DNA from: Aphrocallistes beatrix
Lineage: Eukaryota > Porifera > Hexactinellida > Sceptrulophora > Aphrocallistidae
Length of the DNA: 64,000 nt
Assembly: GCA_963281255.1 (NCBI GenBank)
Contig: OY725499.1
Coordinates: 496,001-560,000, forward strand
Reading direction: 5' to 3'
Shown one piece after another: positions 7,317 to 27,254 of the stretch. Below the pieces are notes generated by a model. The model was not told where the DNA came from. It saw nothing but the letters and a program-made list of their open reading frames with translations, and did not search any database. The translations under genes were made by a program, and so were the position numbers. Each line of letters begins with the position of its first letter. The stretch's first letter is position 1.

Positions 7317-8204
7317 TAGCTTTGTATATCAGATTATTTGGTCCTTTAGTACCGTTTTTTTTGTTATTTGTAAACTCAATGACATAATTTATAATTTAAT
7401 GGCTTTATTAATTCACTAAAGTGAATTTTTTCTCTAGGGTTAGCATTTTAGCTAAATATTTTTGTTATATTTTGTACGTATAATTTACTAATACTACTAT
7501 TGTATATACTTGTAGATTAACTTTAAGTTCAACTTTGGAGGGAAATGGTGATTGAATAAAAATGTGTCCAAATTTATTTTGAAAATAGGTACATCGAAGT
7601 ATATTGCGCAATTGGCGCCTAGATTTTTCTGCTAAAAAACAAAAATCATTTCCGCTACAAATTTTTTTCACAAATACGTTCCAAAGCACCGACAAGCTTA
7701 TTCATTTCTCAAAACACATACAGTAGTGCATGTATATATACTTTCATCGTGAGGGATTAAAAGCATGGAAGTGGTTTTCTATATAATAAGGTTGCTTCGA
7801 ATATACGCCATTGTTATTCATAATTAACCTCAAAGTCCTTACATTAACATGATATAGAGACATTTCCAGTTACTATACTCAAATATTTCATCCAGCTTTT
7901 TTTGAGTATATTCTTATTATATACGTATATACCGTATTTACCGTGATAACTATTTTTTTCATGGACGTTAAACCCTGGCGTTTATTCAAAGAAAGATTAT
8001 TTATATCAAGGGATTATCTAGGAGCGCTCCTTTAGGCGTATGATTATAAGTCCGAAAATGTTTAGAAGCGTGAAAATTTAGAATATTCCTTAATTTACCA
8101 TTTATTATAATGTTATTTATCGATTTAGGCTATGAAAATTAATGGGTTTGAGACTAGGAGCGTATTTTTGGAGGGCTTATAATACTCTGGTTGATATATA
8201 TATA
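7317..8204. other. Intergenic DNA between convergent NADAR and MED8 genes
   Basis: No exon seen. Around 7970-8060 there is TAGGAGCGCTCCTTTAGGCG, resembling the CGCCTA-rich hAT-like element at 20353-20576, probably a decayed relative. Confidence 0.4.
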
Positions 8205-8658
8205 CAGTCGACTCCGCTTAATAGGGTCACATCGGTCAGAGAATATTTTGGCTCGATTAAGCGGAGAACCCTATAAACCGAAAATATTTTAAAGCTTTAT
8301 GTGTGACAACTATTCCGCTCTTGCCAAACGTGGTCCGATTATAACACGTGTTATAACATATGTTGTAACACGTGTTATAACTTGTGTTATAACACGTGTT
8401 ATAACTTGTGTTATAACTTGTGTTATAACACGTGTTATAACATATGTTATAACACATGTTATAACACATGTTATAACACGTGTTATAACACATGTTATAA
8501 CACATGTTATAACACAAGTTATAACACGTGTTATAACACATGTTATAACACAAGTTATAACACGTGTTATAACACATGTTATAACACAAGTTATAACACG
8601 TGTTATAACATAAGCGGTAGGGCCGATTAACCACTGTCCCTATTAAGCGGAGTCACTG
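8205..8658. mobile_element. Pogo-like miniature element with a minisatellite core
   Basis: Ends are CAGTCGACTCCGCTTAATAG and CTATTAAGCGGAGTCACTG, preceded and followed by TA. Internal landmarks of the family (GATTAAGCGGAGAACCCTA, CGAAAATATTTT) are present on the left. A 12-bp repeat array has expanded in its centre, making it 454 bp instead of 150-190 bp. Confidence 0.85.
8339..8612. repeat. 12-bp palindromic minisatellite (E-box-like)
   Basis: About 22 units of TTATAACACGTG and variants (CACATG, CATATG, ACTTGTG). The unit is its own reverse complement when phased, so frames open on both strands (repeated CYNT or VITR peptides) are artefacts. CACGTG, CATATG and CACATG are E-box cores, so the array could bind bHLH factors. 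That is inference. Confidence 0.9.
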
Positions 8659-8835
8659 TACATATGTATATCCGCAAATTTTCGCCCCCCAAGATATATG
8701 TTGACATAAATTCACTAATCCCATACACCTAGAGAACCCTTATTCTATACAATCATATGTAACACAAGGTTAAAAGTATTGCATGTAATAAAGGGACTTT
8801 TCACGATTCTAATCAATCGGATCTATTTATCAAAT

Positions 8836-11800
8836 CTATTTATGATATCCAATGATGCCATGTTCTGCCTTGCCTTTATTCTGTACCATCAGCAGCTTCC
8901 TCGTTACCTGGTTGGAGCTAGCAGCTTTGTCATCGGATTGAGTTCTCTGTTTAACGAACTCTTCATCCTCCATATTCTCCGTGTAGTTGTATGCGTATTT
9001 CGTTAGACCGTCTATGATGTCATTATGCACTGCTATCTGATTCTGAATGTCTTCGACTGATTTCTTATCTGCCAACTGTAAAGAAAGATTATAATTTGAG
9101 TTTATACATGGAAAAACATTCTAAAGCAAGATTTTTAAGCCATGATCCGTCATAGAAATTTCTACATTCTGTCTACCCCTCCCAATAATCGTAATACAAC
9201 ATTTCACACCCGTAGACAGTGGATCACATATGATACACGAATATACGTCCTGTATAATATAATTAAAGATATAAAACTGAACTTGTTGTAATAGCGCTAA
9301 TACATTTCCAGACATGCCTACCGTTTTTCACTCTTCTATTGTGCTAATTTTGACGAGTGTCCCGTTTTTAAATGAAATTTCCCCATTATGTCAACTTTTT
9401 TGGATCACGTGTATAATCTTTTTCCATTTCGTCCCGCCATTCCCGCGAAATTCAACACCGCGTCACGCTTTTATTATGGCTCGCTTTTATTCGCTGTTTG
9501 CGTGTATGCATTTCCTAATTTTTTTATTACGATACGCCATTGGTTCTATTAGCATATACCCACCCTCAGATCTTAAGCAAGTTTTTACAAATGTTAATTT
9601 ATTTCGTTAGCTTATTAGCAAGCAATTTTGTACTAAATACAGTCAATTTTTTTTAATGAAGTGACTCACTACTAATTTTCCTCCGTAGAGGATTAAATAT
9701 ACAGTCGACTCCGCTTAATAGGGTCACATCGATCAGTGGACATTTTGGCCCGATTAAGCGGAGAACCCTATTTACCGAAAATATTTTGTATTAGCTTCTA
9801 TGTATGAGAGTTATTCTGGTCCTGCCAAAAGTGACCCTATTAAGCGGAGTCGACTGTATATACATATTATCCGGAGTTTCTTATTAACGAGGTTCTATTG
9901 TATTTCCTATAAATTTTGCATTCGAGTCAATCACTTTATATTCAAATAAAACTAAAACTTACTTCCTGCAAACGCTTGTGCTCATTTTCAATCTCTAAAT
10001 CCAGCTTAGTTCTGAGATATTGAGGCACTTGCTCTGGATCCATAGACTTGAGTCTACCCTCAGTGATCGCTTCCAACTCTTTGTCATACTCTCCGGACAT
10101 CGCCGTGGGCTGTACTACACTGCTCTGGACGTCTTTACCTGTTGAAGATCGAATTAATACAGTCGACTCCGCTTAATAGGGTTACTATTTAATGGGTCAC
10201 TTTTGGCAGGACCGGAATAGCTCTCATACATAGAAGCTAATACAAAATATTTTCGGCTAATAGGGTTCTCATGTCCGACCGATGTGACCCTATTAAGCGG
10301 AGTCGACTGCATTAAAATGACAAAATTCGCTTAACCGTAGAATGCCCAGAGGGGACACAGTGTCCCCAATATCTCGGATGTCTCCCAGCCATTTACTACG
10401 CAATAGAATTACACAGTCAACTCCGCTTAATCGGGACAACCGCTTAATTGTGACAAGTCTCCAGACGGAATAGTTCCCAAACATAAAAGTTAATATTAAA
10501 TTTGAAACTCTGCTTAATCGGGACAAAATATCCGGGACCAAAGTGTCCCGTTTAAGCTGAGTCACCCGTATAAGGAGTGAAAAAAAGCTGGACATAATGG
10601 GGAAATTTCGTGTAAAACTCGTGAAAGTTAGTTCAATAGAAGAGTGAAAAAAAGCTTTTTTTTCTGGTGACTAATAGCTACCACGCTCAGGAATTTGGTG
10701 GCCTATCGTTTAAACTTTGGTGGCTATCAAACTACCAGATTTGTCGAGCACTGATGTCTACTTGCCTTTGAACCAAATCCTAGCTCCACTCCACCTATCA
10801 TGCACTAAAACAGCTTTCTTATTAATTTCAATTCTTATTTGTTTGATAACTAAATTAAATGTCCTGTGTCCTCAAACGAAATCTCGAATAATTCTGATGT
10901 CAACCTTTATTAAAAGCTTTTCATAGAATTCATTTGCGGCTTCATAAAATTAGATATTCAAATGAACTCATTCGTAATTATTAATCAAATTTAATCTTTT
11001 GTCTTGTGTGTTGAATTGGAAGTTCAACCGAATCCGTGTTAAATTTCGCTATATGCAGATTCCTAGTATAAATTCACTTATTGTAAGTTCATAGATTCGA
11101 TAAATTCCTCTGTTTGACATACTTTTATTCAAACCTTATTGTAGTAGTCATTCTTTATAAAAATTTACATCTACAATACACCTTAGTTAATCCTAACATG
11201 AAAATACAATATTATTCGCCTCTTCGTTTTCAATCGAAGTTAATAATCTTTTATTTTTCGAAGAGATTGATAAACCTCGTTAAAAAGCAATCATAACGAA
11301 ATAATAACCGTAATATTCTGACATTACAAATTTATTATATTTAAATCCTTATTGAATTAGTGTTAAATTCACTAATCCGAACGATTTTTTCAATCTTCGG
11401 TACAGAAATGTTCAGATTAACGAGAATGTACTGTAAGTTAATACTGTAACTTAATTAAGGTTTCGTAAATCAGAAGTTATGATTGCTAAAACTTCTATTC
11501 AAAATAAACAAGATTATTAATCGGAAATAAAACTTGTTTCGTTATTCATACATACGACGTAAACTATTAAAGAATTTAACATTTTTTCGATATTTAGTGT
11601 TAGTTTAGTAGCATTTAGAAATTGGAGAATGACTGAGGTGGAAGCACAACTCAATTTCGAGATGTCTTCAGAGAGTGAATACACAGAAGACGTTGCCAAG
11701 TATTATGAGGTAGTTAATTAACGAAATATTTAGAGTAAAGGCCTCTCGGTTTCGATTTTTTATTTTGGTTCACTAATTATTAAAATGCTCCGCTATTCAA

Positions 11801-14800
11801 TTTAGATTTTTTCTGCATAATATTTTCACTGAACAACAAGTCAAGAGATACAGTCGACTCCGCTTAATAGGGTCACATCGTTCAGAGGAGATTTTGGCCC
11901 GATTAAGCGGAGAGACCTATTAACCGAAAATATTTTTTATTAGCTTTTATGTGTGAGAGCTATTCCGGTCCTGCCAAAAGTGATTAAGCGGGGGACCCGG
12001 TTAAACAATGACCCTATTAAGCGGAGTCGACTGTAACTGTATGAGAATTGGACAGCGCTGGTCTAGGCTATGAAAATATTGGGACACAATTTTATCACAT
12101 AATCTGTAAAAAAAATTCTTAAAAATATCTATTTTTGCCACACATAATTGGATGTAATCTTATTCTGGCACAATTCAATTGTCTTTTTGGGTTGCATTAC
12201 TTTGGCAACTATTGGAATTAATTGAATTTATTTGCCAAAATAATGCGATTTCAGTTTTTTTTTCCAAAATTATAGTACATCCCACAATAATTTATGCAGT
12301 TTCTAGCAAAATTTCTCATCTGATAATCAGCTTTTTAATAAATTTCCCACTTAGTTATTGTCTGAGCTACAGCAGTACAAGCGTCTCGTATCAGAAAAGA
12401 GCAAGCAGAATCATTTCCTAAACAAATGGGTCCAGGAGCTTGATAACAAAATCGGTCTGTTAGTCAATCACAGAATTTCTCTTGAAGAATTGACTAACAT
12501 TTGCAGCAAGCAGAAAGAGATGCCAGAGTCAGTTCGAGCGGATCAACAGCATCAGCTGTTCAGTAATCTGTTCTATCTCCTGCAAACCTGTCCCAGGTAT
12601 ATATCAGTTTGAATTTTTAATTTCTTGAAATTGCAAGCCAACTACGGTTGCTATTATGAAGTTTCAGGGTGCAAAAAATGATACTATAAAACCATAGGCG
12701 CCAAATGTGGGTACCTGGGGGGGGGGGGGCGTGATGCCGGGCAGTGGAGCAGACTAAACCCCAAAATTATGTTAATTGAGTCTAGATATATATCCCAATC
12801 ACATTTTTATTCCACTACAGTCCGATATTTTCTTTTCCCTAGGTGACAACAATAGCTGTAGATCGATATTTGAGCGTCTAAGATAAAAACTTTTCAGGGG
12901 GGCAAGCCCCCAGACCTCCCTTACCGTCGCTCGCTCTTGGTCCCCCCCAGGTTTTATTTTATTTCGAAAAACTTGGCGCCTATGTATAAAACCGATGTAA
13001 AACTTTGATCAAAAATGTGGAATTTGTATTAGTTAGTATTGAAATTCCACATTTCTGATCAAAGTTCTACATTGGTTTTCTAATCAAAATATTTTCTGAT
13101 CAAAATATATAGTCTCGCAAAAAATATGCTCATAATAATTTTTATGGGTGATCTTGGTGTAAAAATTACACCACGATTTTGGGAGTTACAACGCCATTCA
13201 TATTTTTTCAGCGATAAAGTTCATAATTGTTTGGTGGTTAACACCACGGTTAAGCTGAGTTGGTCTCAATCTTAAAAACCCTTGCTCTTAAGGCTAAGTA
13301 CTTTTCATATATAGGAATCAATAATAAATACATTAGTTAATTGGGAACAATGATTGATCAATATAAAAATTAATTCCCTGTCTAGTCCAGATACTATATC
13401 TCAAATGCCTCCCATTCCCCCTATGTCTGTGACTATCATATATGATAGTAATTTCAATTACAGTAGAACTCGGATAAGACGTACCTCTTCGGGAAGGAAT
13501 TATTAGTACGTAATATCTGTAAGTACGTACTATCCGAGTTTGTACTACATACGTAGAAATCTATATCAGGGTTGGAATTTAACCCGGGTTAAATAGGTTT
13601 TGCCCAGCCCAGTGGGTTAAACCCGGGTAAAACCCGGGTTTAATTAGTTTAACCCGGGTTAAAACGGGTTTTATTCTCCAGAAACGGATTTTCCCAGTTA
13701 TTGTCCTTGTTTTCAAATTCAACGATATGATTAATTATATAAGCGTATTTATTGTAAGAGGTGCATATCAAAATCTAATACACTAATGAAAATCTAAAAC
13801 AAATGAAAAGCAAATCACCAGTCAAACTCCACTGAACCTCTCAATTCCCGATAACAGATTACCAATTTTGCTGGTTCTCTAAGTATAATCTATTTCGAAG
13901 TTTGTTCTGGACTATACTAAAGTTAGAAAATATCCGCTCAATTGAAGCATTTATGCGGCTCACCTTAGACCTTCTACTTTTAGAAAAAAGCTTTGAACAG
14001 GATCACTGGGCCACCAACAAAATTAGCATTATACATGTAGTAACCGCTATGATTAGAGTAGGTAAGATGAACAAACTGCTCTACATAAATAATAGTAGTA
14101 TCCTTTGATTGTTTACTTAATGCACCTCAGATTGTTGTAACTTTTAAGAAATTCCATTGTTCGTACATCAGGTCTTATTAAAAATATCATTACGGAATCT
14201 CAATATAATACTTGCAGAATAAGAATTTTCAATCCAAACAATTGATATCGCTAAAATTAACTTGATTTACAAATACATTAGAATAAAACCCACTTTAACC
14301 CAGTTTAACCCACAAAAGGGGGTTTTGCCCAGCCCGGGTTTAACCCGGGTTAAATCCGGGTTTAACCCGGGGGGTGGGTTAAATTAGCCAACCCTGATCT
14401 ATATTATAGATGGATTTTGGTTCAGAGAAATGAGTACGTACAAACGGAAGAACGTATTATCCGACTACGTACTAACCGTGTTCTACTACTGTAGATTGTT
14501 TTAAAAACCCAATAACAGCCCAATCTCTCTCTATTCTAAAATTTTAATTAACAACCAATTAAGAAGATGTACATATTGTTTGTTGGAGGAACTACATGTA
14601 ATAGACTACTTATTCTTACTAAAACTGGTACAAAATTAACATGCAAACCACCCAAACATGTAAACTTATTACAAAACTCCATTGAAAAGAGGCCTTTTAT
14701 GTTTCCTTCTTCTTTATTTTTCTTTCTTGATCTTATCGATTTCTTTGTACTGATCCTGGTAACGATAAGTGATGATAAAAATGCCCACCACCCAATGGTA

Positions 14801-17800
14801 TAACACGAAATTGAATATATTCCAGGATCTTAGCACGTCGTATACAAGGTGTTGGTAGTCAGAAGTCAGGTTGATAACGAAAATGAGAATTCCTGAGATA
14901 TTCGTTACCATGATATAGAAAACCGTCCATACGAAATCCAATTTAAGGTGGAGAAAAGTATGGAAATTTCCGACGATTTTGTCAAAAACCGCGATTTGCA
15001 CAAGAAACAATGCATAGGCGCTACCAATTGCTAATATGACGTCACTATCGAACCCAAAATCTTTAAATCTGAAGCAGTAATATTTCGGATTGTCTGTATT
15101 ACTCGAATTAGTTTGTTCAAGCAAGTCGGCGTAACTGTTATTACTCGGCTCGCAAGGAAAGTAAGAAAAACTAAATTTATTCAGAGCAATGAAGCAGTCG
15201 TAGCGTGGAAGGCATTCGGACGATTCCAATTCTTCAATCACAGTCTCATCGATAAATTGTGCAAATGAGAATAACGCTGCAATGCAAATACACACCCACA
15301 AGGCCCAAGTACTGTAGTGTGGCTCCAACCATTTTCTTGTTGAAAAACAAACATTTTTTTTGTCCTTGAGATCCCATTTAAATTGATTTTGAATCTTCCA
15401 GTATTGATACTCGACATTTAATTTCACATCTTCGTACACTTTATCATTCTCAGAGATTTCATGCGGGTAATCTGGTTCTATCCCAGCATCCGGGTTTGAT
15501 TCAACTAATATTTTATTATGCAATGACACAGAGTTGAATAATTTCGGTATGACATTTCGCAATGACAATCTTTCATTCGTATAAAACGCTGATACAACCA
15601 TTCCGATGGTAATGCTACAAAAGAGGAGAATAGGCGCTACGAATCCGCTGATAAAATCCACCGCGATATAAACGTAACCAAACCTGAATTGACGATTGCT
15701 ATGGAAGAGTGAGATGAACAAAGCCCATGCAAATGCAGTCAAACTGAGGAAAAAGAGAGTTAGGAATAAATAAGTCCCTATGACACTTCCAAAGGTGTAA
15801 TCCCTGAATTCATGAATATCGAATGTCTTCTCCAAACAAAACATCTCCTGCACAGTGATTTTTTTACGTTCACCCTTACTTACAATTTTACCTTTTTTTT
15901 TTAAATCGTCAGAAATTCCTTCGTTGCTTTCTTCATCCTTCTTTTTATCCACTTCATCTGCTACTTCTTTAAGCGCGTTTTTAGCCACATTCGAAACCAA
16001 AGATGCTAGCTTATTAGAATGGTTAGCATCAGCTTGGATCGATCGTAGCATAACCAAGGTTAAAACGGTCAGAAAAAGTGTCACAATGAACACGAATCCT
16101 GTTGCCCCGCACGCATAAGTAAAGTACAAGTCATCACCAGCTCTCGCACGTACGTAGGCGGTGACCAATAATCCCACGTACCCCAGGAGACAGAGTGCTG
16201 TGATTATTGATAAGACTAGCATAAAAGCGGTTCTTTTTCTTGCTTTTTCGTCATTTTTTTCTTGCTTATTTTTGTCTTCTGTATCTTTTTGCGCCATCTG
16301 TTCAGTATTGAGATTTGTTAGTTTTGTAGTATTAAGCTTTACTCTGGTATCGCTTATATATGAAATTTGTCCTGGGTGAATCTTGTGCAAATATCGTTAG
16401 CATATTTTATGCTCAAATATGCTAATGGAATAGTCTTGATTTGTTTGAAGAACTTTGTTGTTTGATAACCTTCATATGAAATCGCGATGTGAACATTTAA
16501 TTATGTATGTTGTACAGTTGACTCCGCTTAATAGGGTCACTGTTTAATTGGATCAACCGCTTAATCGGGCCACTTTTGGTAGGACCGGAATAGCTCTCAC
16601 ACATAGAAGCTAATACAAAATATTTCCGGTTAATAGGGTTCTCCGCTTTATCGAGGCAAAATGTCCTCTGACCGATGTGACCCTATTGAGCGTTGTCGAC
16701 TGTACTGAATAATCGCCCCCCATTGGGGTTCAGAATACTTTTGCAGGCCAGATATAGTGTAGTAGTGTCAGTGGAGTCTCATAATTACGACACATTGGGG
16801 ACATGGTTTTTGTCCGTTGTAGAGGGGTTGTCCTCTTTTCGGAGTATCAATTTTGGGAGACTCCACTACACTGTATATACAGAATGATGGCTTAACGTAT
16901 ATTTATCTTTGGTTTCGCACTATAAGTAATATCATGTAACGCGTAAGATACTAGTTTAACTAGAAGCAGTCTTAGCCATCTGGCGCACCGAAATTTAGCA
17001 AAGCGCGCCTGTATTTCAAGACTATTAAGAATAAAAAAAATGGTTTACGTATTAAAATCAAAATAGAATAGACCATCGTAGAGGTGTAACCAAGGTGGTG
17101 CGTATCACTTTAGAATGGGGCGGCGAAAGGTGAGACTAGGTGGGGCACAGACCCCAGGAGAATCCGAGTGTACCCCACCCACAGTGGGACACACTCAAAT
17201 TCCAAAACAACATAATTTATTGACAAATCTTCAAAAAATGTTCCGTCATCACATCCCCTCTTTGCTACAAGACGAAGACTATCCAAAATCCACGTAAAAA
17301 GACAACAGCTATCAAAAAAACAATATTTTCACGAAATGTGTGTCCCAGTGGTGCCGAGCTAGCACCGCTACTGGTGTGGGTTATTGCAAATCATACAGTC
17401 AGGGTCGCTTAATCTGAACATTCGTTTATTATGAACTAACCTCCTGGTCTCAATTTCATATTTAGATAGGATTTGTATTGAACCAAGTTCGCTTAATATG
17501 AACTGAAGTATGTCTATTATAAACAGATTTTCTGGTCCCCTGGTGGTTCACAATAAGCGACCCTGACTGTATTGCGATACAAATCATGAGAATTGGAGGG
17601 TAAGATACACCACCACAAGTTAAGTCTTAGCGAAGCCGCTCGTGAACCCCCAAACGACTTTAAAAGTCAAAGCAAAATTATTATGTATGAATCAACATAT
17701 GGAATTTGTGGACAGGATTCTCCCAGGATTCTTTGAAAGTGTATCGGCAGTGGTATAGCCAGGATTTTCTGACGGGGGCACAACATCCAGCTGGGGGTTT

Positions 17801-20800
17801 GGGGAGCACTGTAAGCCCCCAATGGGGTCCAGGGTGCAAATCTGGAACCTGACAACATTTAATTTATAATATACCCAGATTGTCCTGAATTCAAATATGC
17901 CCAGATGGGCCAATACTCCTTAAAGAAGGAAGTCGTATCGACTCGACATGTCTTAACGGGCTGAGGAGAATCCTGTCTGGGAGATTTGTGCAATGTTGAG
18001 GTCAAAATCAACGGACATATTTGGTTCGCATATTTTATGAATTTGCTAATTATCATGTAGATATGGTGTACCTTGTACAATTGCGATTCACAGCAGACTT
18101 TTGCTAATTCTGCTTGTTATCACACAATAGTGTAGTTTCCAGGTAAATGAGGAGACTTAATAATTTAGTAGTTAAGCATTCCTCTTTTAATTGGAAATAT
18201 CATTTTTGTCGATAACGTATGCGAACTATTTCCTAAAATCATTATCAAGTCGATATGGGACGCCTGTGCAATTATTAATCACAGACTTTTGCTAATTCTG
18301 TTTATTTTTACAATATAGTGTTATTTCATAGTAAGTGAATCAAAAATATGTCAATTTTCTATCTATTTACAGAGTTTGTATTCAATTGTCTGGAAATCAC
18401 GTATTTGTCCATTCTTTTAAACGGCTATTAATAATCCTATACATATACTACGTACTAACCGAGTTTGTACTACAGTAATCCCTCGATTATCCGAACACCT
18501 TAGGAAAATATTCCCGGATAAGTGTTCGGATAAGTGAAATAAAGATAGTACAACCTCGATTATCCGAATATTTACCTCCAAATAAAAGATAAATTAAGTG
18601 AAAATAATTGCTCATTAGAGAAAAAGTAAACAGCTGTAGATCCATATGTGAACATATAAGATATAAAAATGTTCCTGGGAGGGGGGGAGGGGGCAAACCC
18701 CCCTCAGATTCCCCCTTAAGGACGCTCGCTACGGTCGCTTTTTGTCAACCTAAAAAATATATTTTAAAAATCTGGCCCCCCTCCGAAGTCCATGGCCGCA
18801 TGTGCCACACCCACGCTACGCCTCTGTAAATCTCTGTTTTGAAAGCGATATATCTTCCAAATAATGGAATACATTGGGCATTCAAATCAATATGTTTAAT
18901 ATGGACTTGGACTTGTATTCTAAATTTTATGCTCCAATAGAATCTGCGAATAGATACATAATCCATCCACTCCAAATAATCACGTAAACCCCCCAATGGG
19001 GGTGCAAATCTCCTGGAACTTGACAACATTTAATTTATAATATACCCAGATTGTCCTGAATTCTAATATACCCAGATTGTCCTGAATTCTAATATACCCA
19101 GATTGTCCTGAATTCTAATATGCCCAGATGGGCCAATACTCCTTAAAAAAGGAAGTCGTATCGACTCGACATATCTTAACGGGCTGAGGAGAATCATGTG
19201 TGGAAGATCTGTGCAATGTTGAGGTCAAAATCAACGGAAACATATTTGGTTCGCATATTTTATGAATTTGCTAATTATCAAGTAGATATGGTGTACCTTG
19301 TACAATTGCGATTCACAGCAGACTTTTGCTAATTCTGCTTGTTATCACACAATAGTGTAGTTTCCAGGTAAATGAGGAGACTTAATAATTTAGTAGTTAA
19401 GCATTCCTCTTTTAATTGGAAATATCATTTGTTCGATAACGTATGCGAACTATTTCCTAAAATCATTATCAAGTCGATATGGGACGGCTGTGCAATTATG
19501 AATCACAGACTTTTGCTGATTCTGCTTAGTTTTACAATATAGTGTTATTTTCATAGTAAGTGGATCAAAAATATGTCTACTCTACATCAGTGTTGTCCAA
19601 AGAGCGCGAAATATCGCAATGAGGCTCGAATTTTTATCTATTTTACAGAGTTTATATTCAATTATCTGGAAATCACGTATTTGTCCAATTTTTTAAACGG
19701 ATATTAATCACCATCTGATACATTATTAATTTGAACACTGTGCCAGTAAAATGTTCCTGCGGGGGGCAAGACCCCAAACTCCTCCTTAAGGACGGTCGCT
19801 TTTTGTCAACCTAAAATATAATTTTTTAAAATATTTTCCCCCTCTTGAGAAATCTCTAGCTACGCCCCTGCGTATACAGAGGCGTAGCCAACTGAATTTT
19901 ATAGCAAGGTTGTGGCTAACGTGCGGAAGGGGGAGCACAAAATTATTGGGTTGAGGCCTTAGACGTATGTGCCGCATCCTCGCTACGCCTCTATACATAT
20001 ATGTTTTGAAAGCGATATACAGTCGATTCCGCTTAATAGGGTCACTGTTTAATCGGGTCAACCGCTTAATCGGGCCACTTTGGCAGGACCAGAATAACTC
20101 TTACACATAAAAGCTAATACAAAATATTTTCGGTTAATAGGGTTCTCCGCTTAATTGGGGCAAAATGTCCTCTGACCAATGTTACCCAATTAAGCGGAGT
20201 CGACTGTATCTTCCAAATTACATTGGACAATCAAATAAATATGTTTAATGTGTACTTGTATTTTTAAATTTTCTACACAGCCTAAAATTTTATGCTCCAA
20301 TAGAATCTGCGAATAGATACATAATCCATCCACTCCATATGATCACGTCAACCAGGGTTTCATCCAGCTTTCCAATGTTATACGCCTAAATGGACGCCAC
20401 CATTTTTCTACGCGCCTAGACTCACTTTTATATAGCATTTTTATATATGTTTTATGCTGCACGCCTAAGTAGGCGTATGCCCCGCGCCTAGCCTCAAAAA
20501 ATCATACGCCTAACTATGATCCATGGGATCAAATACTCGCCTCTAGGCGCGCTCAGTACGCCTAGATGAAAGCCTGACGTCAACCTAAACAACCATATTA
20601 TTGCAATCATTAGCATATTTGCATGCAATTATATGCTAATGTTAAGATCGCATCAAGAGTAGACTCAATCAACTTGCTTATAAATAAGAATTACAGTGAA
20701 ATACATTGTAATAATGATCCCAGTTATTAAAGCAAAGCTTGACCCAGTTAAGACAAGGGTGTATGACTTTCATTACGATGCGACCCACATTTTCATGTCA

Positions 20801-23800
20801 ATATTTTCGTGTCTCTGTCTCATGATTCACGCTGGGTTACTTATTGCTGCATACTTTCGCGCAAGATCAGGAGATGATCTGTACTTTACCTATGCAGTGG
20901 CTGGGACGCTTTTCGTACTAGTGATGGGGTTAGTTATGGCTACAACTGTTGAGGTGTTCCTACAAGCTATCAAGGTCAAGTACGATAAAAAAGGTGCCCA
21001 AGAATTAGGATTACTACCCAAAAAGCCCAAATTAATTCGCATTGAAGACAAGTTTGATGTTGAACATACGTTCAGAGACCTTGAAAAGTTTAGCTCCACC
21101 ACACCACTCTCCTTTTTCGGTATCTACCTGTTCATAACTCTGTTTTTCCTCAGTTTAAATGGATTTGTTTGGTCTTTATTCGTATCACTTTATCATCATA
21201 ATCGTGAATTCAGATTCGGATATGTGTACATTGTCGTGGATCTTTTGAGTGGATTCGTAGCTCCTGTACTTTTCCTTTCGAGCGTGACAATATCAATGAT
21301 ATTACTGTCATATTATACAGGAAATAAATTATCGATTCGGAATGTCTTACCACGATTCTTCTATTCCGTAAAACTTGAACACAGAATATTACAGCATAAA
21401 AACCCTGGTGTTCATTTCGAGAGAAGTTCCAGTTATGAAGTGCTTAGAAAAAATGATAACGATCCAGAAAAATTTATAACGATCCATGAAAATTTAGAAA
21501 TAAACGAAGCGGAGCCAGCAAAGGATATTCCAATGGAAAAACATCAAACATCACCCACAAAGAGAATCACAGACACATCTGATGAAATAGGGCTAGCTGA
21601 TCCTCCAGACCAAAGTAGTGAGAATCCAGATCTTAGTGGCATTACAGACCCTCCAGACCAAATTAATGGAGATTCAAATAGTATGAGTGAGGACGATTTG
21701 GTAGACGAAGATGCGCATTTGAAAGTGGAATACGCTTATTGGGAAGTGTTAGATAAGTTTAAGTGGGATTTAAAGGAGAAGAAGAATTGGTACAAATGGT
21801 TAGAGCCTCATTACAGTACTTGGGCCTTTTGGATCATTATTTGCATTTCCTCTTTGGTTGCATTCGCACAGTTCATTGATTCGACGATAGTAGAAGAAAT
21901 GGTCTCTTCTACCTGTCCCGATAACTTTGATTGTTTCATCACTAAGAACAGTTTCAATTTTGAATACTTCCCTTGCGATTCAGGCAATGTCACTGACGAA
22001 ATTTCCATAAATGACGAACTTCCGGTCGATTTTACACTCTACTGTTTCAGGTTCAAAAATTTCGGGTTCGATAGTGACGTCATATTAGCCGTAGGGAATG
22101 CTTATGCGTTGTATTTAATTCAAATCGCGATTTTCGACAAGATTGTAGGCAACTATTACACATCCGTTCACTTCAAAATAGACAGTTTCTGGACTGGAAG
22201 CTATCTGATCGGACCGGCTAGTGCCATTGTCTTAGTCTTCAGAAACGCTCTTTTTGGAAACTATCAAAACCTCTTCTATGACGTATTGCGCAACTGGAAT
22301 ATATTCAATCTCCTCTTCTACCATGTGATAGTGGGGATATTCATTGTTACATATCGCTGGCAGGAACAATGGTTGGAACTGGACAAGGCATCAAAAAAGA
22401 AACAATAGTAACTGTGTACCATTTATTTAATAGAGTGGGTATTTGTAGATAAGTATTTTGTATTATATGTTGTGGGGATTAATAGGTGTGTTATTAACTG
22501 TTTTCAATGTTTCTGTTCATTAAATCAAATTAGAGTAGAAGTCTTCCTAACTCATTTTGAGCGGGGGCCAATAAACTATAAATAGAATGGATCCCAATAT
22601 TATTTTTTTGGACAAAGTTTGTTGGAAATCAAATAGAGAATTTCTAAAATATTTATGTCCAAAAATACATTTAGGAATAGCAGACAATCGAAAATAAACG
22701 CATATAATTACGACTAAATATGGTCAATGAAAAAATCTGACTTTTTGAGAGAAGTTTTTGCAAAAATAACAAATTTTATAATTAAGAGATGTGTAATAAA
22801 ATATAAAGGAGCGGGTTGGTAACCGATTTAAGGGATCAGTTATTTTTTTATTTCCAACCGGTTAACAAGTTAGAATGTATCCGCTACGTCCATTCTCCCG
22901 TTTTTTATCTATTAACATTTTCAAGGTATTTAGCGACCCTAACACGAGCTGCTTCACTTGAAGAGATAGATGCACTGCTAGAGACAGTGATGTTCTCCCT
23001 GTACGGGAATCAGTATGAAGAGAGGGAGGAACACCTCCTCTTAGCTATGTTCCATCTTGCTCTCACCAGAGAGATACAGAATTCACAGGATTTAGGTATA
23101 CTAAGAATCTCAATTAAAACGAACTCTTGCAAATTTCAGAAATTGAAAATGTCATACTTTCGTGGATTTTAAGAATTTTGAAAGATGGAATATATCGTAT
23201 AATGTTCGAATAATCGCCTCCGTCAAAGCTTAGTTGACTAATTCATTGAAAGATGAAGGAATTATGAATTATTCAAAATCTCAAACTTTAGGCCATTTCT
23301 TGATTCACTCGTTCGGTAATAATATTCATTGAAAACTCTTAAAGCTGAAATATTTATTTTCTTCAGGTGGTAAATTGTGCTAAAATTAATGATCGTCCCC
23401 AGGCTACTATTCGAGTATATACGATATTAAGTTTTAATACAACATTTCCCGTCTGTGAGGTCTTTTTTTATTATCGAAATTTCGAGGAAAATACAACTTT
23501 CTATTAAGGAACTGTACAATATTATAATTCTAGACTTTAAAACTATATCAAAACCAAAGAGTGCCGGGTTTTTTATGACGTAAATTTAAAGAATAAACTC
23601 CATTTAAGATGTAAATGAAGCGTATTTTCTCAGAATTTTGCAATAATTTGACCTGAAAAAAAGTTGTTCCAATGATTTGAAACAACTGTTTCATTTTGGC
23701 AATCTTCAAATCTATAATATTAAAAATGAAATAAGGTTTTTCAAAAATTCAAAATACCTTTATGAGTTTTGGTACATATACTTTATATGATCATTAATAG

Positions 23801-26800
23801 GGACACTTATGCGTAACAACTCTGCTATGACTCGCATGATGACAACCTACACAAGGAGACCTCCTGGAAAGAACTATGTGAAAACTTTTTTCTCTGCTCA
23901 GTTGGAAAAACTTGCATTTATGGAAGACTCCATTGAAATAAACTCAATCAAAGTTAGTATACAATTATGCTATAGATCCTCGTACATCAAGGAAACTATC
24001 ACTGGAAAATTTTCCATCGAATTTTGGTCCGCTGAGCCAATCTTTTCAATTTTTTTAAATTTAAATGTTTCTTCCATAGCTCATACTAATTTTTTTCTAT
24101 GACTATTTATGAGTATTTTCCAGGGTTGCCGTGGGAATGGGAATCTGTGGGTATTCCCATATGGGATGGGAATGGGAATGACTTTAAGCCTATGGGTATT
24201 CCCACATGTGGGTTCTGTGGGTTTTTGTGGGTTTTCTGTGGGTTTCTGTGGGTTTTCTTGGGGCATGCCTAATTTCCGGGACGGGACGGAACCATCAGGT
24301 ACCTAATTTCCGGAACGGGACGAGTCAAGATGCTTAATCTCCGGGACGGGACAGAAAAGGTATCTAATTTCCGAGACGGGACGGGTTAAGATGCCTAATT
24401 TCTTGTGGGTTTCTGTGGTTTTTTTGTGAGGTTTCCTGTGGGTTCTGTGGGTTTCTGTGGGTATTCCCACAGAAATCCTGTGGGAATGGGATGGGATTGG
24501 GTATTGAAATTCCATTCCCACGGCAACCCTAGTATTTTCAGTTCAAATAAATAATATTTACTCTGTCAACAATAATAGGTGTTAGAAGAACTTCGAAACA
24601 AGAGAGGCGATAAACAGATGCGAAGAGGAACACAAACAGAAGCAGATGCTGATCCAGAAGTTCAAGAAATCGTGAAAAAACGAATGAAAACACTCGAAAA
24701 TCACATCACTCACTTTCTCTCATCAATGTATTCAGCTCTAAACAAAGTCCCTTACGGAATACGCTTTCTATGCAAAGCTATTAAAAACTTAGTTGGTGAA
24801 CGTTTTCCAGGCGTATCTCCCGATACAACTGCAATCATGGTGGGTGGGTTTTTCTACCTCCGTTTTATTAACCCCATTATCACAGCACCACATGTACCGA
24901 GCATAAACATCTTAAGCAAAGCCCCCACTCCTAATGGTAGACGTGCGTTGACTTTGTTAGCTAAAACACTTCAGACAATGTCCAATTTAGCCACAACTCG
25001 TGAGGCTTATATGAAACCTTTGGAGCCATTTCTATTCCGCAATCATGAAGCGTTGAAAACGTTTTTGAATAACCTGTGTGATGTGCCTGACTTCCATCAA
25101 CAATTGGAGATGGAAGCTTTTTTGGCTTTGTCAAAACGGCAAATTAGTTTGGAATTGAGGTGGAAAGAGATTTGCAACATACACAAACTCCTCATTACAT
25201 ATCGTGAGCAATTAATAGTGGAGGAATCAGATAGTCTAGCTCTCATTCTGGACGAATTAAAAAGCAGAATAATTCCAGAAGAACTCAATTTGAATCCAGA
25301 ATCATTAATGCATCTGCCTTTAGAAAGTTATTGGCCGGATGCCCCCGAGAACTCAATATTCTCATTAGATAATGCTGAAAATGCATACAAATTCAATATT
25401 CTGCTTCTATTGAAAATATTCAAGGCAGTACCACATTGTTTAAACGAAGAGGACTTGCATTCAGCTCTGATGAAAGCGAGAAAATGTAATGATGACGAAG
25501 TTGCAACGCTCACAGAATTGGTTATTAAGAAAATTAGACCACTGCTTGATAGTGAAGAAAATCCAGAAGAGTTAAAAGCGAAAATTTTCAACGAAGTCAA
25601 ATCGGAAATTCCTACTTTAGTCGACCTCATTAACCAAAATGCCGAAGAGTTGACTGATTTAAAATTTATTTTCGAAGATTTATCCAATATTGAACAGTCG
25701 CTGATAGAAAAGATGGAAGCATACGAACAGTATTTGATTCAGGTTCGAAGAGCAGCGACACCAAATAATCCACTCGAAAACTCACAGACAGAGTTGAACT
25801 CAAGCAAAAAGCATAAATTCTCATTTTCACAGTTATACCGAGAAGGTGTTATATCGGATGCCAGTAACGTTCCTGAGAAAAGACGTAATAACCTATATTT
25901 CCTCTTGTCAATAGAGGATGCAGGTGTTTTTAAAATAGCCGTGCATTACGAGGGTCGAGATAATGAAATTATTAGCTATAATTTCGGGTTAGAAGAATTG
26001 CTAGAGCATCAGTACCTGCAAAATCCTGTACTGACTGAATTGGAATTCGTGAATTTAAATGCCAAAAAATTCCTACTACTCATATACCGTACATTTTCTA
26101 TAAGGTAATTTTGCCTTGGGGCATCCCCCTACAATGTCTGCAGCTTTTATTTGTATTTCAACCTCTCATGTACATTTTGGGACAATTTCTCATTTATGCA
26201 AAAATTTGTGTGAGATTTGATAATAAGTTTTGCTGTTTTTGTTGGAACTCTATGCTTGTTTTTCTTGAAAATTTTGACTAGAAGTGATCATATATAATTT
26301 TGTTCATTTTGTATAAACATTTAGTCTAATATTTGCATCATGCCAACTGGAGCCATGATAAAAGCGGGACCAAACAAAAAAAGTATTATACATTGAATCC
26401 CAAAAAAACGGGACATAATAGATAAATTTCAGGTAAAAACAGGACACTCGTCGAAAGTAACTCAACAGAAACATCGGGACGTCCCGCCAAAATGGGACGG
26501 TTGGCATGTATGTATTTGATAACTTTTTTACTGGTAACTAATCTAATTATTATTGATAGTTGGTTCATTGATAACACACAGACATAGGATCTTTATGACT
26601 TTCCTTTGCACGAAATTTGAATTGATTGGCACATGTTTTATACTCCGTTTCGTTTTCGAAACTTATCAAATAGAATTCCTATCCAACCAAATTTCAGAAC
26701 TTTTCACATTAGTTCCATGTCAATAAGTGAATACGAAAAAATGTCTATCAACAGACCGGTACACTAAGTCCTCTCTAATTGTCCACCATTGGGTAATGGG

Positions 26801-27254
26801 ATCCTAAATGGACAATTTGAGAAAGTGTGTGTGTACATAATGCTCTTATTCTGTCAAGTGGACAATTTGAGAACCCTGGACAATTAGAGAGGACCCACTG
26901 TAGTGTAGTTCCATTTGGTTGAATAGATTTTCCAGGAACAAACAGTACTACATACGTACGTTACACGCCAATCATACTATATAAGGCATCTCCTCTACTT
27001 GGAGCTGCACAAAAATGTCAATCAAAAGGAAAAAAGGAGAACTAACCTTTCTCATTTGCCACTGTTTTTGACAATGTATTCAGCTGACCAGTAAGAACAC
27101 TGAATCCATCCAGCAGCTCAGAGTAAGTAGATAATCCCGTCTGCACCTTGCCTAGCATATCTGTCACAGTACCCTTCACTTCTTTTGTGTGGTTGAGAAT
27201 CACATTAAAAGCAGGGCCTTTTGACAGCTTTTTATCAGATTCAGCTCCTGCCAT
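8836..27254 (-). CDS. MED8: Mediator complex subunit 8
   Basis: Three exons: 27254-27047, 10138-9963 and 9075-8836, each with GT-AG borders (donors GTTAGT and GTAAGT) and matching phases. The joined protein is about 207 residues, somewhat shorter than animal MED8 as I recall it. Exon 1 has LLDGFSVLTGQLNTLSK and exon 2 has EAITEGRLKSMDPEQVPQYL followed by RTKLDLEIE. These correspond to the conserved SVLDSF-LLSGQLNTLNK and VVPDYLRTKPDPEVE regions of MED8, a head-module subunit linking Mediator to RNA polymerase II. Exon 3 is a helical tail ending GIIGYHK. Intron 1 is 16.9 kb and contains a whole RasGAP gene on the other strand. Exon 1 was copied to 38117-38292 as a pseudogene. Confidence 0.85.
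9702..9856. mobile_element. Pogo-like miniature element in MED8 intron 2
   Basis: 155 bp between TA dinucleotides, ends CAGTCGACTCCGCTTAATAG and CTATTAAGCGGAGTCGACTG, almost perfectly inverted. A well-preserved reference copy of the family. The 9314-9430 part of the same intron holds a decayed CATGCC...CCCCATTATG repeat related to 26339-26508. Confidence 0.9.
10160..10309. mobile_element. Pogo-like miniature element just upstream of MED8 exon 2
   Basis: About 150 bp, starting CAGTCGACTCCGCTTAATAG and ending TATTAAGCGGAGTCGACTG, in inverse internal orientation to the copy at 9702. It ends about 21 bp from the MED8 exon 2 acceptor at 10139, so it may supply branch-point sequence. Confidence 0.85.
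10413..10567. mobile_element. Diverged pogo-like miniature element
   Basis: Begins CAGTCAACTCCGCTTAATCG and ends near AAGCTGAGTCACCCGTATA, with TAATCGGGACAAAATATCC inside. It is followed at 10570-10660 by a fragment of the GGACATAATGGGGAAATTTC repeat. Confidence 0.7.
10661..11173. other. MED8 intron 1 DNA upstream of the RasGAP gene, nothing recognised
   Basis: No exon or repeat border seen. This stretch and the element that follows probably contain the RasGAP promoter, but I cannot point to a motif. Confidence 0.4.
11174..11433. mobile_element. Pogo-like miniature element (CAGTACACCCTCG family)
   Basis: Same family as 481-1118 but reversed. It starts CAATACACCTTAGTTAATCC and ends AGATTAACGAGAATGTACTG between TA dinucleotides. 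Internally it has ACTAATCCGAACGATTTTTT, the complement of the left arm of the 610 copy. Confidence 0.8.
11629..26108 (+). CDS. IQGAP-related RasGAP, short form without CH or IQ region
   Basis: Five exons: 11629-11709, 12355-12596, 22926-23095, 23801-23952 and 24579-26108. Every junction is GT-AG and restores frame, giving about 724 residues. Order: short coiled coil, then LDNKIGLLVNHRISLEEL and LFYLLQTCPRYLATLTR (the IQGAP signature before the GAP domain), then RasGAP with LYGNQYEEREEHLLLAMF, TLMRNN, YTRRPPGKNY, IPYGIRF-type VPYGIRFLCK and FFYLRFINPIITAP. A RasGAP C-terminal domain ends LNAKKFLLLIYRTF. Calponin-homology, WW and IQ regions are absent upstream, as in Dictyostelium DGAP1-type proteins. 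The arginine in TLMRNN (about residue 169) sits where RasGAPs carry the catalytic finger. The family organises actin and cytokinesis with Rac or Cdc42. The gene lies inside MED8 intron 1, and its own intron 2 holds two further genes. Confidence 0.85.
11851..12033. mobile_element. Pogo-like miniature element in RasGAP intron 1
   Basis: 183 bp between TA dinucleotides, ends CAGTCGACTCCGCTTAATAG and CTATTAAGCGGAGTCGACTG. It includes an internal duplication of the GATTAAGCGG region on the right. Confidence 0.9.
12693..12984. mobile_element. hAT-like miniature element, CATAGGCGCC family
   Basis: Ends CATAGGCGCCAA and TTGGCGCCTATG, flanked on both sides by the identical 8-bp TATAAAAC (12685-12692 and 12985-12992). 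8-bp duplications are characteristic of hAT and a few other superfamilies. It contains a G10 run and a GGGGGCAAGCCCCCAGACC segment shared with other elements here. A smaller relative is at 27743-27877. Confidence 0.9.
12985..13460. other. RasGAP intron 2, no gene seen
   Basis: AT-rich with a local inverted pair around ATCAAAAATGTGGAATTTG and AAATTCCACATTTCTGATC (about 13006-13062), suggesting a small hairpin or decayed element. No coding signal. Confidence 0.4.
13461..14491. mobile_element. Pogo-like element split by a hAT-like insertion
   Basis: Left end CAGTAGAACTCGGATAAGAC after TA; right end TACTAACCGTGTTCTACTACTG before TA. Without the 830-bp insertion at 13567-14396 plus its 8-bp duplication it would be about 190 bp. 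Both arms contain AGTACGTAC and TATCCGA motifs. Confidence 0.7.
13567..14396. mobile_element. hAT-like non-autonomous element rich in AACCCGGGTT
   Basis: Ends CAGGGTTGGAATTTAACCC and GGGTTAAATTAGCCAACCCTG, with exact 8-bp duplication ATCTATAT (13559-13566 and 14397-14404). Clusters of TTTAACCCGGGTTAAA near both ends probably act as subterminal transposase sites. The AT-rich middle (13730-14270) has a short open frame with no recognisable domain. Confidence 0.9.
14714..16297 (-). CDS. Polytopic membrane protein, paralogue of the 20714-22408 protein
   Basis: Intronless, 527 residues from the ATG at 16297 (MAQKDTEDKNKQEKN). The frame stays open upstream, but only non-ATG codons are available. 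About eight hydrophobic segments are visible: residues ~25-47, 60-86, 168-195, 202-235, 320-345, 413-435, 448-475 and 490-512. Landmarks shared with its paralogue are RAR-GDDLYFTYA, FRFGYVYI, WLEPHYSTWA, FAQFID, YYCFRFKDFGFDSDVILA and WNIF-F-YH. Between helices 5 and 6 is a loop with four conserved cysteines and NNS/NSS glycosylation sites, probably extracellular. I do not know the family or function. The gene lies in RasGAP intron 2 on the opposite strand and has its own TATA box and palindrome upstream. Confidence 0.85.
   Translation of the reverse strand: MAQKDTEDKNKQEKNDEKARKRTAFMLVLSIITALCLLGYVGLLVTAYVRARAGDDLYFTYACGATGFVFIVTLFLTVLTLVMLRSIQADANHSNKLASLVSNVAKNALKEVADEVDKKKDEESNEGISDDLKKKGKIVSKGERKKITVQEMFCLEKTFDIHEFRDYTFGSVIGTYLFLTLFFLSLTAFAWALFISLFHSNRQFRFGYVYIAVDFISGFVAPILLFCSITIGMVVSAFYTNERLSLRNVIPKLFNSVSLHNKILVESNPDAGIEPDYPHEISENDKVYEDVKLNVEYQYWKIQNQFKWDLKDKKNVCFSTRKWLEPHYSTWALWVCICIAALFSFAQFIDETVIEELESSECLPRYDCFIALNKFSFSYFPCEPSNNSYADLLEQTNSSNTDNPKYYCFRFKDFGFDSDVILAIGSAYALFLVQIAVFDKIVGNFHTFLHLKLDFVWTVFYIMVTNISGILIFVINLTSDYQHLVYDVLRSWNIFNFVLYHWVVGIFIITYRYQDQYKEIDKIKKEK
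16353..16362 (-). promoter_or_regulatory. TATA box of the 14714-16297 gene
   Basis: Minus strand CATATATAAG, 56 bp upstream of the ATG at 16297 and 34 bp from the palindrome at 16397-16427. Position and spacing match the paralogous gene. Confidence 0.55.
16397..16427 (-). promoter_or_regulatory. Palindromic ATGCTAA promoter element, copy 1
   Basis: Perfect 11-bp arms TTAGCATATTT and AAATATGCTAA around a 9-bp centre. A matching palindrome lies at 20609-20640 before the paralogous gene. The arms resemble octamer (POU-type) sites. Retention of position and sequence in both paralogues argues for function. Confidence 0.65.
16515..16702. mobile_element. Pogo-like miniature element
   Basis: 188 bp with ends CAGTTGACTCCGCTTAATAG and CTATTGAGCGTTGTCGACTG, TA on both sides. 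Mutations in the right arm indicate an older insertion than 9702 or 20020. Confidence 0.85.
16703..17395. other. Intronic DNA between nested genes, no gene seen
   Basis: Contains short fragments with repeated CTCCACTACACTGTATA-like ends (about 16743 and 16860) that may be a decayed element of ~125 bp. No exon. Confidence 0.4.
17396..17569. mobile_element. Miniature element, CAGTCAGGGTCGCTTA family
   Basis: 174 bp flanked by TA. Ends CAGTCAGGGTCGCTTAATCT and CAATAAGCGACCCTGACTG are better preserved than in the sister copy at 1327-1515. Confidence 0.85.
17850..18440. repeat. Local duplication, unit 1
   Basis: From AACATTTAATTTATAATATA through ACGGGCTGAGGAGAATC and GGTTCGCATATTTTATGAAT to the region after ATCACGTATTTGTCC, this is nearly identical to 19022-19700. 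The downstream piece 18838-18985 (TCTGCGAATAGATACATAAT) is likewise repeated at 20004-20345, so a block of about 1.2 kb is duplicated in tandem. Confidence 0.85.
18478..18840. mobile_element. Decayed transposon fragments inside duplication unit 1
   Basis: Starts near CAGTAATCCCTCGATTATCC, a pogo-like end. It then carries GGGGGCAAACCCCCCTCAGA and TTAAGGACGCTCGCTACGG, ending at ACGCTACGCCTCTG, a hAT-like CAGAGGCGTAGC end in reverse. Borders of the individual pieces are not resolved. Confidence 0.45.
19022..19700. repeat. Local duplication, unit 2
   Basis: Second copy of 17850-18440. It has three tandem copies of ATACCCAGATTGTCCTGAATTC where unit 1 has one, plus a short insertion near TCTACATCAGTGTTGTCC (about 19580). 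It is otherwise nearly identical. Confidence 0.85.
19877..19993. mobile_element. Short hAT-like miniature element, CAGAGGCGTAGC family
   Basis: 117 bp with ends CAGAGGCGTAGCC and CGCTACGCCTCTA. Flanks TGCGTATA and TACATATA are a poor 8-bp match, so the duplication has decayed or the border is off. CAGAGGCG starts are typical of some hAT families. Confidence 0.6.
20020..20206. mobile_element. Pogo-like miniature element with an empty site in window
   Basis: 187 bp, CAGTCGATTCCGCTTAATAG to ATTAAGCGGAGTCGACTG, flanked by TA at 20018-20019 and 20207-20208. Unit 1 of the local duplication has the uninterrupted AAAGCGATATATCTTCCAAA at about 18843-18862. This gives the exact empty site and proves a TA target duplication. 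Confidence 0.95.
20353..20576. mobile_element. hAT-like miniature element with CGCCTA repeats
   Basis: Ends CAGGGTTTCATCCAGC and CTAGATGAAAGCCTG, flanked by identical 8-bp ACGTCAAC (20345-20352 and 20577-20584). Inside are many CGCCTA/TAGGCG hexamers, likely transposase-binding repeats. It sits only 33 bp upstream of the promoter palindrome of the next gene. Confidence 0.9.
20609..20640 (+). promoter_or_regulatory. Palindromic ATGCTAAT promoter element, copy 2
   Basis: Perfect arms ATTAGCATAT and ATATGCTAAT flank ATTTGCATGCAAT-like sequence, which contains ATTTGCAT, the complement of the POU octamer. It lies 37 bp upstream of the TATA box, matching the 34 bp spacing at the paralogous gene. 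Confidence 0.65.
20678..20688 (+). promoter_or_regulatory. TATA box of the 20714-22408 gene
   Basis: TTATAAATAAG about 26-36 bp upstream of the first ATG, implying a very short 5' leader. Confidence 0.55.
20714..22408 (+). CDS. Polytopic membrane protein, paralogue of the 14714-16297 protein
   Basis: Intronless, 564 residues from the ATG at 20714 (MIPVIKAK); the frame extends upstream only through a GTG. Same helix layout as its paralogue, with RARSGDDLYFTYA, NREFRFGYVYIVVDLLSGFV, KWLEPHYSTWAFW, FAQFIDSTI and YCFRFKNFGFDSDVILAVG. The loop after helix 5 keeps the four cysteines (STCPDNFDCF, YFPCDSG, LYCFRF) and an NVT site. The cytoplasmic linker at about residues 225-345 is longer and acidic, with two DPPDQ repeats, and is the main difference between the two. 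Family and function unknown. The shared promoter design suggests co-expression with the divergent copy. Confidence 0.85.
   Translation: MIPVIKAKLDPVKTRVYDFHYDATHIFMSIFSCLCLMIHAGLLIAAYFRARSGDDLYFTYAVAGTLFVLVMGLVMATTVEVFLQAIKVKYDKKGAQELGLLPKKPKLIRIEDKFDVEHTFRDLEKFSSTTPLSFFGIYLFITLFFLSLNGFVWSLFVSLYHHNREFRFGYVYIVVDLLSGFVAPVLFLSSVTISMILLSYYTGNKLSIRNVLPRFFYSVKLEHRILQHKNPGVHFERSSSYEVLRKNDNDPEKFITIHENLEINEAEPAKDIPMEKHQTSPTKRITDTSDEIGLADPPDQSSENPDLSGITDPPDQINGDSNSMSEDDLVDEDAHLKVEYAYWEVLDKFKWDLKEKKNWYKWLEPHYSTWAFWIIICISSLVAFAQFIDSTIVEEMVSSTCPDNFDCFITKNSFNFEYFPCDSGNVTDEISINDELPVDFTLYCFRFKNFGFDSDVILAVGNAYALYLIQIAIFDKIVGNYYTSVHFKIDSFWTGSYLIGPASAIVLVFRNALFGNYQNLFYDVLRNWNIFNLLFYHVIVGIFIVTYRWQEQWLELDKASKKKQ
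22409..22925. other. RasGAP intron 2, 3' part
   Basis: Follows the nested gene's stop. No repeat border or second exon found. The acceptor for RasGAP exon 3 (TTTTCAAG) ends it. Confidence 0.5.
23096..23800. other. RasGAP intron 3
   Basis: A 705-bp AT-rich intron starting GTATAC and ending TTAATAG. Nothing else recognised. Confidence 0.7.
24121..24531. mobile_element. hAT-like miniature element in RasGAP intron 4
   Basis: Ends CAGGGTTGCCGTGGGAATGG and CCATTCCCACGGCAACCCTA, with 8-bp duplication GTATTTTC (24113-24120 and 24532-24539). The interior carries GTGGGTTTCTGTGGG repeats near the ends and a central array of CTAATTTCCGGGACGGGACG-like units. It stops 47 bp before exon 5. Confidence 0.9.
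26109..26338. other. RasGAP 3' flank within MED8 intron 1
   Basis: AT-rich, no gene; presumably contains the RasGAP 3' UTR. No clear AATAAA. Confidence 0.4.
26339..26508. mobile_element. Miniature inverted-repeat element, CATGCCAAC family
   Basis: About 170 bp from CATGCCAACTGGAGCCATGA to GGGACGGTTGGCATG. It contains CGGGACATAATAGATAAATT and CGGGACGTCCCGCC. A sister is at 55524-55671 and fragments at 9314 and 10575. The target duplication is not clear, so the superfamily is unassigned. Confidence 0.7.
26762..26900. mobile_element. Pogo-like miniature element with an empty site
   Basis: 139 bp, CACTAAGTCCTCTCTAATTG to CAATTAGAGAGGACCCACTG, between TA dinucleotides. The duplicated flank at about 37959-37980 reads straight through (CAACAGACCGATAGTGTAG). 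This shows the site before insertion and dates the element after that duplication. Confidence 0.9.

Follow-up and report, generated by a model that had tools for sequence, protein, structure and literature searches.

A predicted two-level nest of protein-coding genes in the glass sponge Aphrocallistes beatrix: two intronless paralogues within a RasGAP intron within a MED8 intron

Results

Organization of the locus

The window, i.e. the whole stretch of 64,000 nt that was analyzed, corresponds to positions 496001–560000 of contig C13 in a genome of 100.5 Mb comprising 28 contigs. It has a G+C content of 35% and contains no N. As shown in Table 1, this region carries the predicted coding exons of MED8, of a RasGAP gene and of two intronless genes, termed A and B. 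GT-AG borders were found at all six introns of MED8 and RasGAP, and the reading frames are open throughout. The RasGAP coding exons are placed within MED8 intron 1 (this refers to the coding part of the gene, exclusive of untranslated ends), and both A and B are placed within RasGAP intron 2. A is encoded on the MED8 strand, opposite to RasGAP, and B on the RasGAP strand, opposite to MED8, so that each inner gene runs antisense to one of its hosts and in parallel with the second. Sense/antisense overlap of four putative transcription units follows from this geometry.

Polyadenylation-type signals (AATAAA or ATTAAA) were identified within 400 nt past the stop codons of A (one) and B (four), and none was found within the same distance past the stop codons of MED8 and RasGAP.

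Table 1. Predicted genes, promoter-like elements and repeats of the nested locus (positions within the window).
Feature	Position	Strand	Description
MED8 exon 1	27047..27254	-	coding, ATG start, ends in phase 1; Pfam Med8 14.5 bits alone, profile 15-67
MED8 exon 2	9963..10138	-	Pfam Med8 37.7 bits alone, profile 72-124
MED8 exon 3 and stop	8836..9075	-	frame and splice sites; no Pfam match alone
MED8 intron 1, host of RasGAP	10139..27046	-	16,908 bases, GT-AG, matching phases
RasGAP gene	11629..26108	+	exons 11629-11709, 12355-12596, 22926-23095, 23801-23952, 24579-26108; 724 aa
RasGAP intron 2, host of A and B	12597..22925	+	10,329 bases
Gene A	14714..16297	-	one uninterrupted frame of 527 aa; strongly hydrophobic segments in seven clusters
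Gene B	20714..22408	+	one uninterrupted frame of 564 aa, paralogous to A
Inverted promoter-like element of A	16397..16425	-	TTAGCATATTTG-N8-ATATGCTAA, starts 128 nt before ATG
Inverted promoter-like element of B	20610..20639	+	TTAGCATATTTG-N9-ATATGCTAA, starts 104 nt before ATG
Miniature inverted-repeat element	9696..9861		MED8 intron 2
Miniature inverted-repeat element, family of 9696..9861	10155..10315		MED8 intron 1, 16 nt upstream of exon 2 splice acceptor
Miniature inverted-repeat element, family of 9696..9861	11846..12038		RasGAP intron 1
Miniature inverted-repeat element, family of 9696..9861	16511..16706		between A and B
Miniature inverted-repeat element, family of 9696..9861	20015..20213		between A and B
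Tandem duplication	17842..20353		between A and B, spacing 1.06-1.36 kb (~1.2 kb), pieces 82-99% identical

Other genes of the window include three tandem single-frame genes on the plus strand (28345–30588, 35066–37306 and 39761–42112) with TPR and SET domains, which we take to be SMYD4-like; MED8 exon 1 and the start of the first of them are about 1.1 kb apart. Two overlapping long frames, also on the plus strand, were observed at 57135–60527 (URGCP-like and RHD3-type GTPase domains) and 60500–63202 (von Willebrand A domain). Pfam analysis of 20 further open frames, out of 69 listed, revealed no clear case of another nest in the window.

MED8, the outer host gene

When joined, the three MED8 exons form an open frame of 624 nt encoding 207 aa; the second intron has 887 bases. 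The joined product belongs to the Med8 family according to Pfam, with a score of 80.6 bits (profile positions 18–181 of 231) against a curated cut-off of 28.3. This score is higher than the sum of those obtained for the single exons (Table 1), and exon 1 taken alone falls under the cut-off. MED8 chains of solved Mediator complexes were matched at 6.9e-17, and the alignment, from residue 15 or 16 to residue 153, reaches exon 3 and has no gap at the 16.9-kb join. In the original prediction, the minus-strand exons of MED8 were joined in phase over 16.9 kb; both the outer limits and the junction 27047/10138 proved right.

MED8 intron 1 is a strong outlier, being about 33–50 times longer than the published mean intron lengths of glass sponges, which the available text of the sources gives as 341 bases for Oopsacas and, for one Aphrocallistes vastus scaffold, as 516 bases (PMC10282587). 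Such a length, as well as the presence in each layer of repeats able to mislead assembly, would fit an assembly misjoin or a recent rearrangement, in which case exon 1 and exons 2–3 of MED8 would not constitute one gene, or would lie together elsewhere. A break of this kind would, however, have to leave the two MED8 halves in matching phase, in a window free of N. Moreover, a single database contig of 620,872 bases, which may come from the same assembly, carries RasGAP exon 5 together with A and B, and homologues of MED8 exon 1 and RasGAP exon 5 are both reported with a contig of 3996 bases (see below). Since the only Med8 match in the genome at E≤1 was exon 2, no second Med8 gene was found at this threshold; exon 1 is too weak for such a search, so a diverged copy could be missed. 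Taken together, we consider a misjoin or rearrangement very unlikely.

The two parts of MED8 might also be brought together by trans-splicing of separate transcripts, with no cis-splicing over 16.9 kb. A trans-spliced leader is indeed reported in A. vastus, but according to the available text it is short (about 37 bases; PMC10282587). Exon 1 of MED8 has 208 bases of coding sequence and the usual GT-AG borders, and it lies upstream of exons 2–3 on their own strand, the position required for cis-splicing. We regard trans-splicing as the least probable of the explanations considered, with hardly any weight.

RasGAP, the middle gene

The five exons of the plus-strand gene give 2175 nt of open frame, separated by introns of 645, 10,329, 705 and 626 bases. 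A five-exon gene within the MED8 intron had been anticipated, and its junction 12596/22926 was correct. The nearest named relative of the encoded protein is LOD99_60 of Oopsacas minuta (78% identity over 99% of the length; the comparison with this species is of proteins only, P0001), and the best-scoring named match outside glass sponges comes from the sponge Corticium (38% over 95%). The product was aligned with 11 of the 120 homologues listed (of 166 found), giving a set of 12 proteins: those of the window and Oopsacas, two from other sponges, three from cnidarians and five from fungi. The join of exons 2 and 3, which spans the 10.3-kb intron, falls within a gap-free region in all 12 aligned sequences.

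Pfam analysis identified the RasGAP (152.1 bits) and RasGAP_C (34 bits) domains, as well as two unrelated matches below the cut-off (E≤1); at the same threshold, no CH, IQ or WW domains were detected. The IQGAP scaffold proteins possess a CH domain, IQ motifs and a WW domain beside RasGAP and RasGAP_C, and their GAP domain lacks the arginine of the catalytic finger. The residue R169, whose position we take to be that of the catalytic arginine finger, is invariant in 12 of the 12 aligned homologues, and the alignments printed for IQGAP1 and IQGAP2 show a threonine here. The identity of an IQGAP scaffold was therefore rejected on both counts, i.e. the lack of CH, IQ and WW domains in a protein of 724 aa and the retained R169. 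Of the earlier designations, “RasGAP” stands, and “IQGAP-related” is better replaced by a more precise term.

The combination of RasGAP and RasGAP_C, a length of about 700–850 aa and the conserved arginine is that of the short Sar1/Gap1-type proteins, and several of the fungal matches are named sar1. Since RasGAP and RasGAP_C occur without CH, IQ and WW domains, and R169 is invariant (threonine in IQGAP1 and IQGAP2), the predicted product of the middle gene is assigned to the short Sar1/Gap1-type RasGAPs rather than to the IQGAP scaffolds, and it is probably catalytically active.

Linkage of MED8 and RasGAP in a relative

A word-based protein search with the MED8 query (81 candidates) yielded one partial frame, P0121, and no whole MED8. 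P0121 is a reading frame from a contig of a sequencing run, in which 48 of 75 residues are identical to MED8 exon 1. Its last strong run of identity (VANEKG) stops at the exon 1 border, past which the sequence is unlike MED8, as expected of unspliced genomic DNA. A second database fragment, P0004, is a relative of RasGAP exon 5, 77% identical to that of the window and 87% identical to the Oopsacas protein; the latter value indicates that P0004 is not the same sequence as Oopsacas.

For P0121 and P0004 alike, the longest contig given has exactly 3996 bases. In the window, the distance from the start of RasGAP exon 5 to the MED8 start codon is about 2.7 kb, which would fit a contig of this size. 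It is thus likely, though not proven, that MED8 exon 1 stands beside RasGAP in another glass sponge. This common contig is deduced from equal size, and it would cover one side of the nest.

The inner genes A and B

The 10.3-kb RasGAP intron had been predicted to hold two complete intronless genes, one on each strand and each with its own TATA box, and both genes were found as described. A and B share 52% identity in alignment. At 35% G+C, 527 sense codons in a row would arise by chance with a probability of about 1e-17 for each starting point. Judged by hydropathy alone, A and B are putative multi-pass membrane proteins.

Analysis of the genome revealed at least five places occupied by this family: A, B, C13:726499-727920, C1:7429853-7431373 and C18:3140821-3141800. 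Single open frames of 522–574 codons are present at four of the five. The C18 copy (L027, 4758–5860) is broken: it is split over two frames and its middle is missing. The C1 member stands between other single-open-frame genes, which implies that location in an intron does not characterize the family as such. A sixth family sequence (P0125) comes from the protein database and is not placed in this genome. A recent retrocopy origin of A and B from a parent gene with introns was rejected, as no copy with introns was seen at the five family places and four of these have single open frames.

A search of the protein database yielded four homologues of A and B, all on the 620,872-base contig that also carries RasGAP exon 5 of the window. 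Among the 7998 candidates that shared most words and were scored, none was found beyond this contig, and the family thus rests on paralogues. A family profile matched nothing among solved structures at E≤1, and searches of Pfam (A and B) and NCBIfam (four members) gave matches below the cut-off only. The AlphaFold2 model of A, based on a four-sequence alignment, has a mean pLDDT of 44.5, too low for a fold search.

The broken C18 copy (one of five family places) and the confinement of all database homologues to one contig would be consistent with A and B being silent copies or pseudogenes, in which case the functional nest would have one level only (RasGAP in MED8). On the other hand, both frames remain open, over 527 and 564 codons, despite an identity of 52%, which points to long-lasting selection, and a TATA box and a common upstream element are kept in both genes. 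We therefore judge it unlikely that A and B are silent.

Promoter-like elements of A and B

Sequences resembling TATA boxes start 63 nt before the ATG of A (TATATAA) and 35 nt before that of B (TATAAAT); the latter distance would leave almost no 5′ leader. Further upstream, both genes have an inverted element of the form TTAGCATATTTG-N(8 or 9)-ATATGCTAA (Table 1), which may be a candidate site for an octamer/POU-type factor. This pattern occurs twice in the window and in none of 100 shuffles. In the whole genome (100.5 Mb) it was found at three places, compared with none for a reversed control pattern; looser inverted patterns gave three places versus one for the reversed control. When as many as two mismatches were allowed, the half-element CATTAGCATATTTG had three matches, a number reached in 11 of 100 shuffles and so not exceptional.

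The third place (C4:5844740-5844770; L030, 4740–4770) is located upstream of a TATA box and a receptor-like gene, whose frames, inspected by eye, look like those of a multi-pass receptor. Two bases beyond this element is TTATAAGCGATTCC, much like TATATAAGCGATACC of A, where the gap is about 35 bases. The inverted element is absent upstream of the C13:726499-727920 and C1 paralogues (about 180 bases inspected for each).

Repeats within the introns

The introns contain five members of one repeat family (Table 1). With perfect inverted repeats of 31 nt at the termini (I16) and numerous short copies dispersed in the genome, it has the features of a miniature inverted-repeat transposable element. 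A genome-wide search gave 1812 first-look candidates, and all 40 that were scored (the query included) matched at 92–100%. The element at 10155–10315 probably supplies part of the branch-point region of MED8, since it starts 16 nt upstream of the exon 2 acceptor. The tandem duplication between A and B comprises families D2, D3, D6, D10–D12 and D14–D16, with register-shifted D3 members at 69–73%.

Two further repeats were noted. A related inverted-repeat element, seemingly with a minisatellite of TTATAACACGTG-like units (by eye), lies just downstream of the MED8 stop codon (8200–8665), and RasGAP intron 4 contains repeats of TGTGGGTTTC-like units (24130–24540).

Discussion

Interpretation of the nested arrangement

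As judged from reading frames, splice borders and homology, we consider the two-level nest of predicted coding exons, with A and B in RasGAP intron 2 and RasGAP in MED8 intron 1, to be real. The probability that the 18.4 kb of glass-sponge chromosome contain four separate protein-coding genes in this arrangement is estimated at roughly 0.87. This value refers to gene structure only, with which silent copies of A and B would be compatible, so that the likelihoods assigned to the different readings need not sum to one.

According to the model that we propose, each of the four genes would have a promoter of its own and be transcribed by RNA polymerase II, and the host introns of 16.9 and 10.3 kb would be removed by ordinary cis-splicing. 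A and B may be driven by a TATA box with an inverted element upstream of it, an arrangement derived by duplication from a single ancestral gene. The nest presumably grew from the outside in, the RasGAP gene entering the MED8 intron first and A and B entering the RasGAP intron later, and the introns may have been lengthened by miniature inverted-repeat elements and by the tandem duplication.

The default expectation for the overlapping units would be tolerated co-existence with some transcriptional interference. In the available text of the respective reports, transcription of a host gene in Caenorhabditis elegans is induced by a gene nested in it in the opposite orientation (PMC12274878), and mammalian nested genes are described as showing transcriptional interference (PMC13309782, PMC8467205). 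By analogy, host induction of the former type or interference of the latter could apply at this locus.

The element common to A and B provides a simple entry point to the activation of genes located in an intron within an intron. It may be speculated that A and B form a co-regulated unit with a private promoter, in which the nearly genome-unique inverted element, about 100–130 nt before the start codon, would drive both genes in opposite directions inside an intron of an intron and would also set when both host genes are disturbed, and that the outer MED8–RasGAP nest has been kept across glass sponges for a regulatory role. We regard this extended proposal as unlikely.

Comparison with known nested genes

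The first gene within a gene was reportedly described by Henikoff in 1986 in Drosophila, in an intron and on the opposite strand. The present locus is similar in having intronic genes on the strand opposite to a host; the Drosophila case has one level and the present locus has two.

The original prediction considered nesting inside a nested gene to be rare, and this view has to be abandoned: in Hormiphora californensis, the available text reports 2357 nested genes in 1654 hosts, of which 484 are doubly nested (PMC8527503). According to its legend, Figure 4 of that report includes a single host harbouring four nested genes, of which two are doubly nested. A transposable element adjoins 1109 of the nested genes on one or both sides (PMC8527503). 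As in A. beatrix, the doubly nested genes of Hormiphora, according to this text, occur in a small non-bilaterian animal genome (110 Mb; PMC8527503); the phylum and the genes are different, and the gene models are derived from Iso-Seq, compared with homology and reading frame in our case. A literature search on doubly nested genes gave nothing beyond Hormiphora among the matches listed. The “Russian doll” genes of a ciliate concern, as far as the available text goes, germline rearrangement.

The closest comparison is with A. vastus, for which the available text gives 2432 nested genes (12.4% of all genes), many of them called conserved (PMC10282587). One passage describes this share as higher than in other published genomes, and the methods describe such values as normal in animals. 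For Oopsacas, 83 annotated nested genes are given, a gap that the authors attribute largely to the annotation method (PMC10282587). In the available part of this paper nesting depth is not counted and the present locus is not mentioned. The same text reports many single-exon genes in A. vastus, and glassin as a single-exon gene nested inside another gene in two glass sponges (PMC10282587). A. vastus thus resembles the species analyzed here in belonging to the glass sponge class and, according to this source, in having nested genes that include single-exon ones (PMC10282587).

Nested genes had already been counted in glass sponges, and the locus described here adds one clean, gap-free second-level nest. 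It is a new example of an already known kind and overturns nothing known. The arrangement is ordinary for such a genome; what it has in addition is the possibly conserved outer linkage and a promoter-like element that A and B have almost to themselves.
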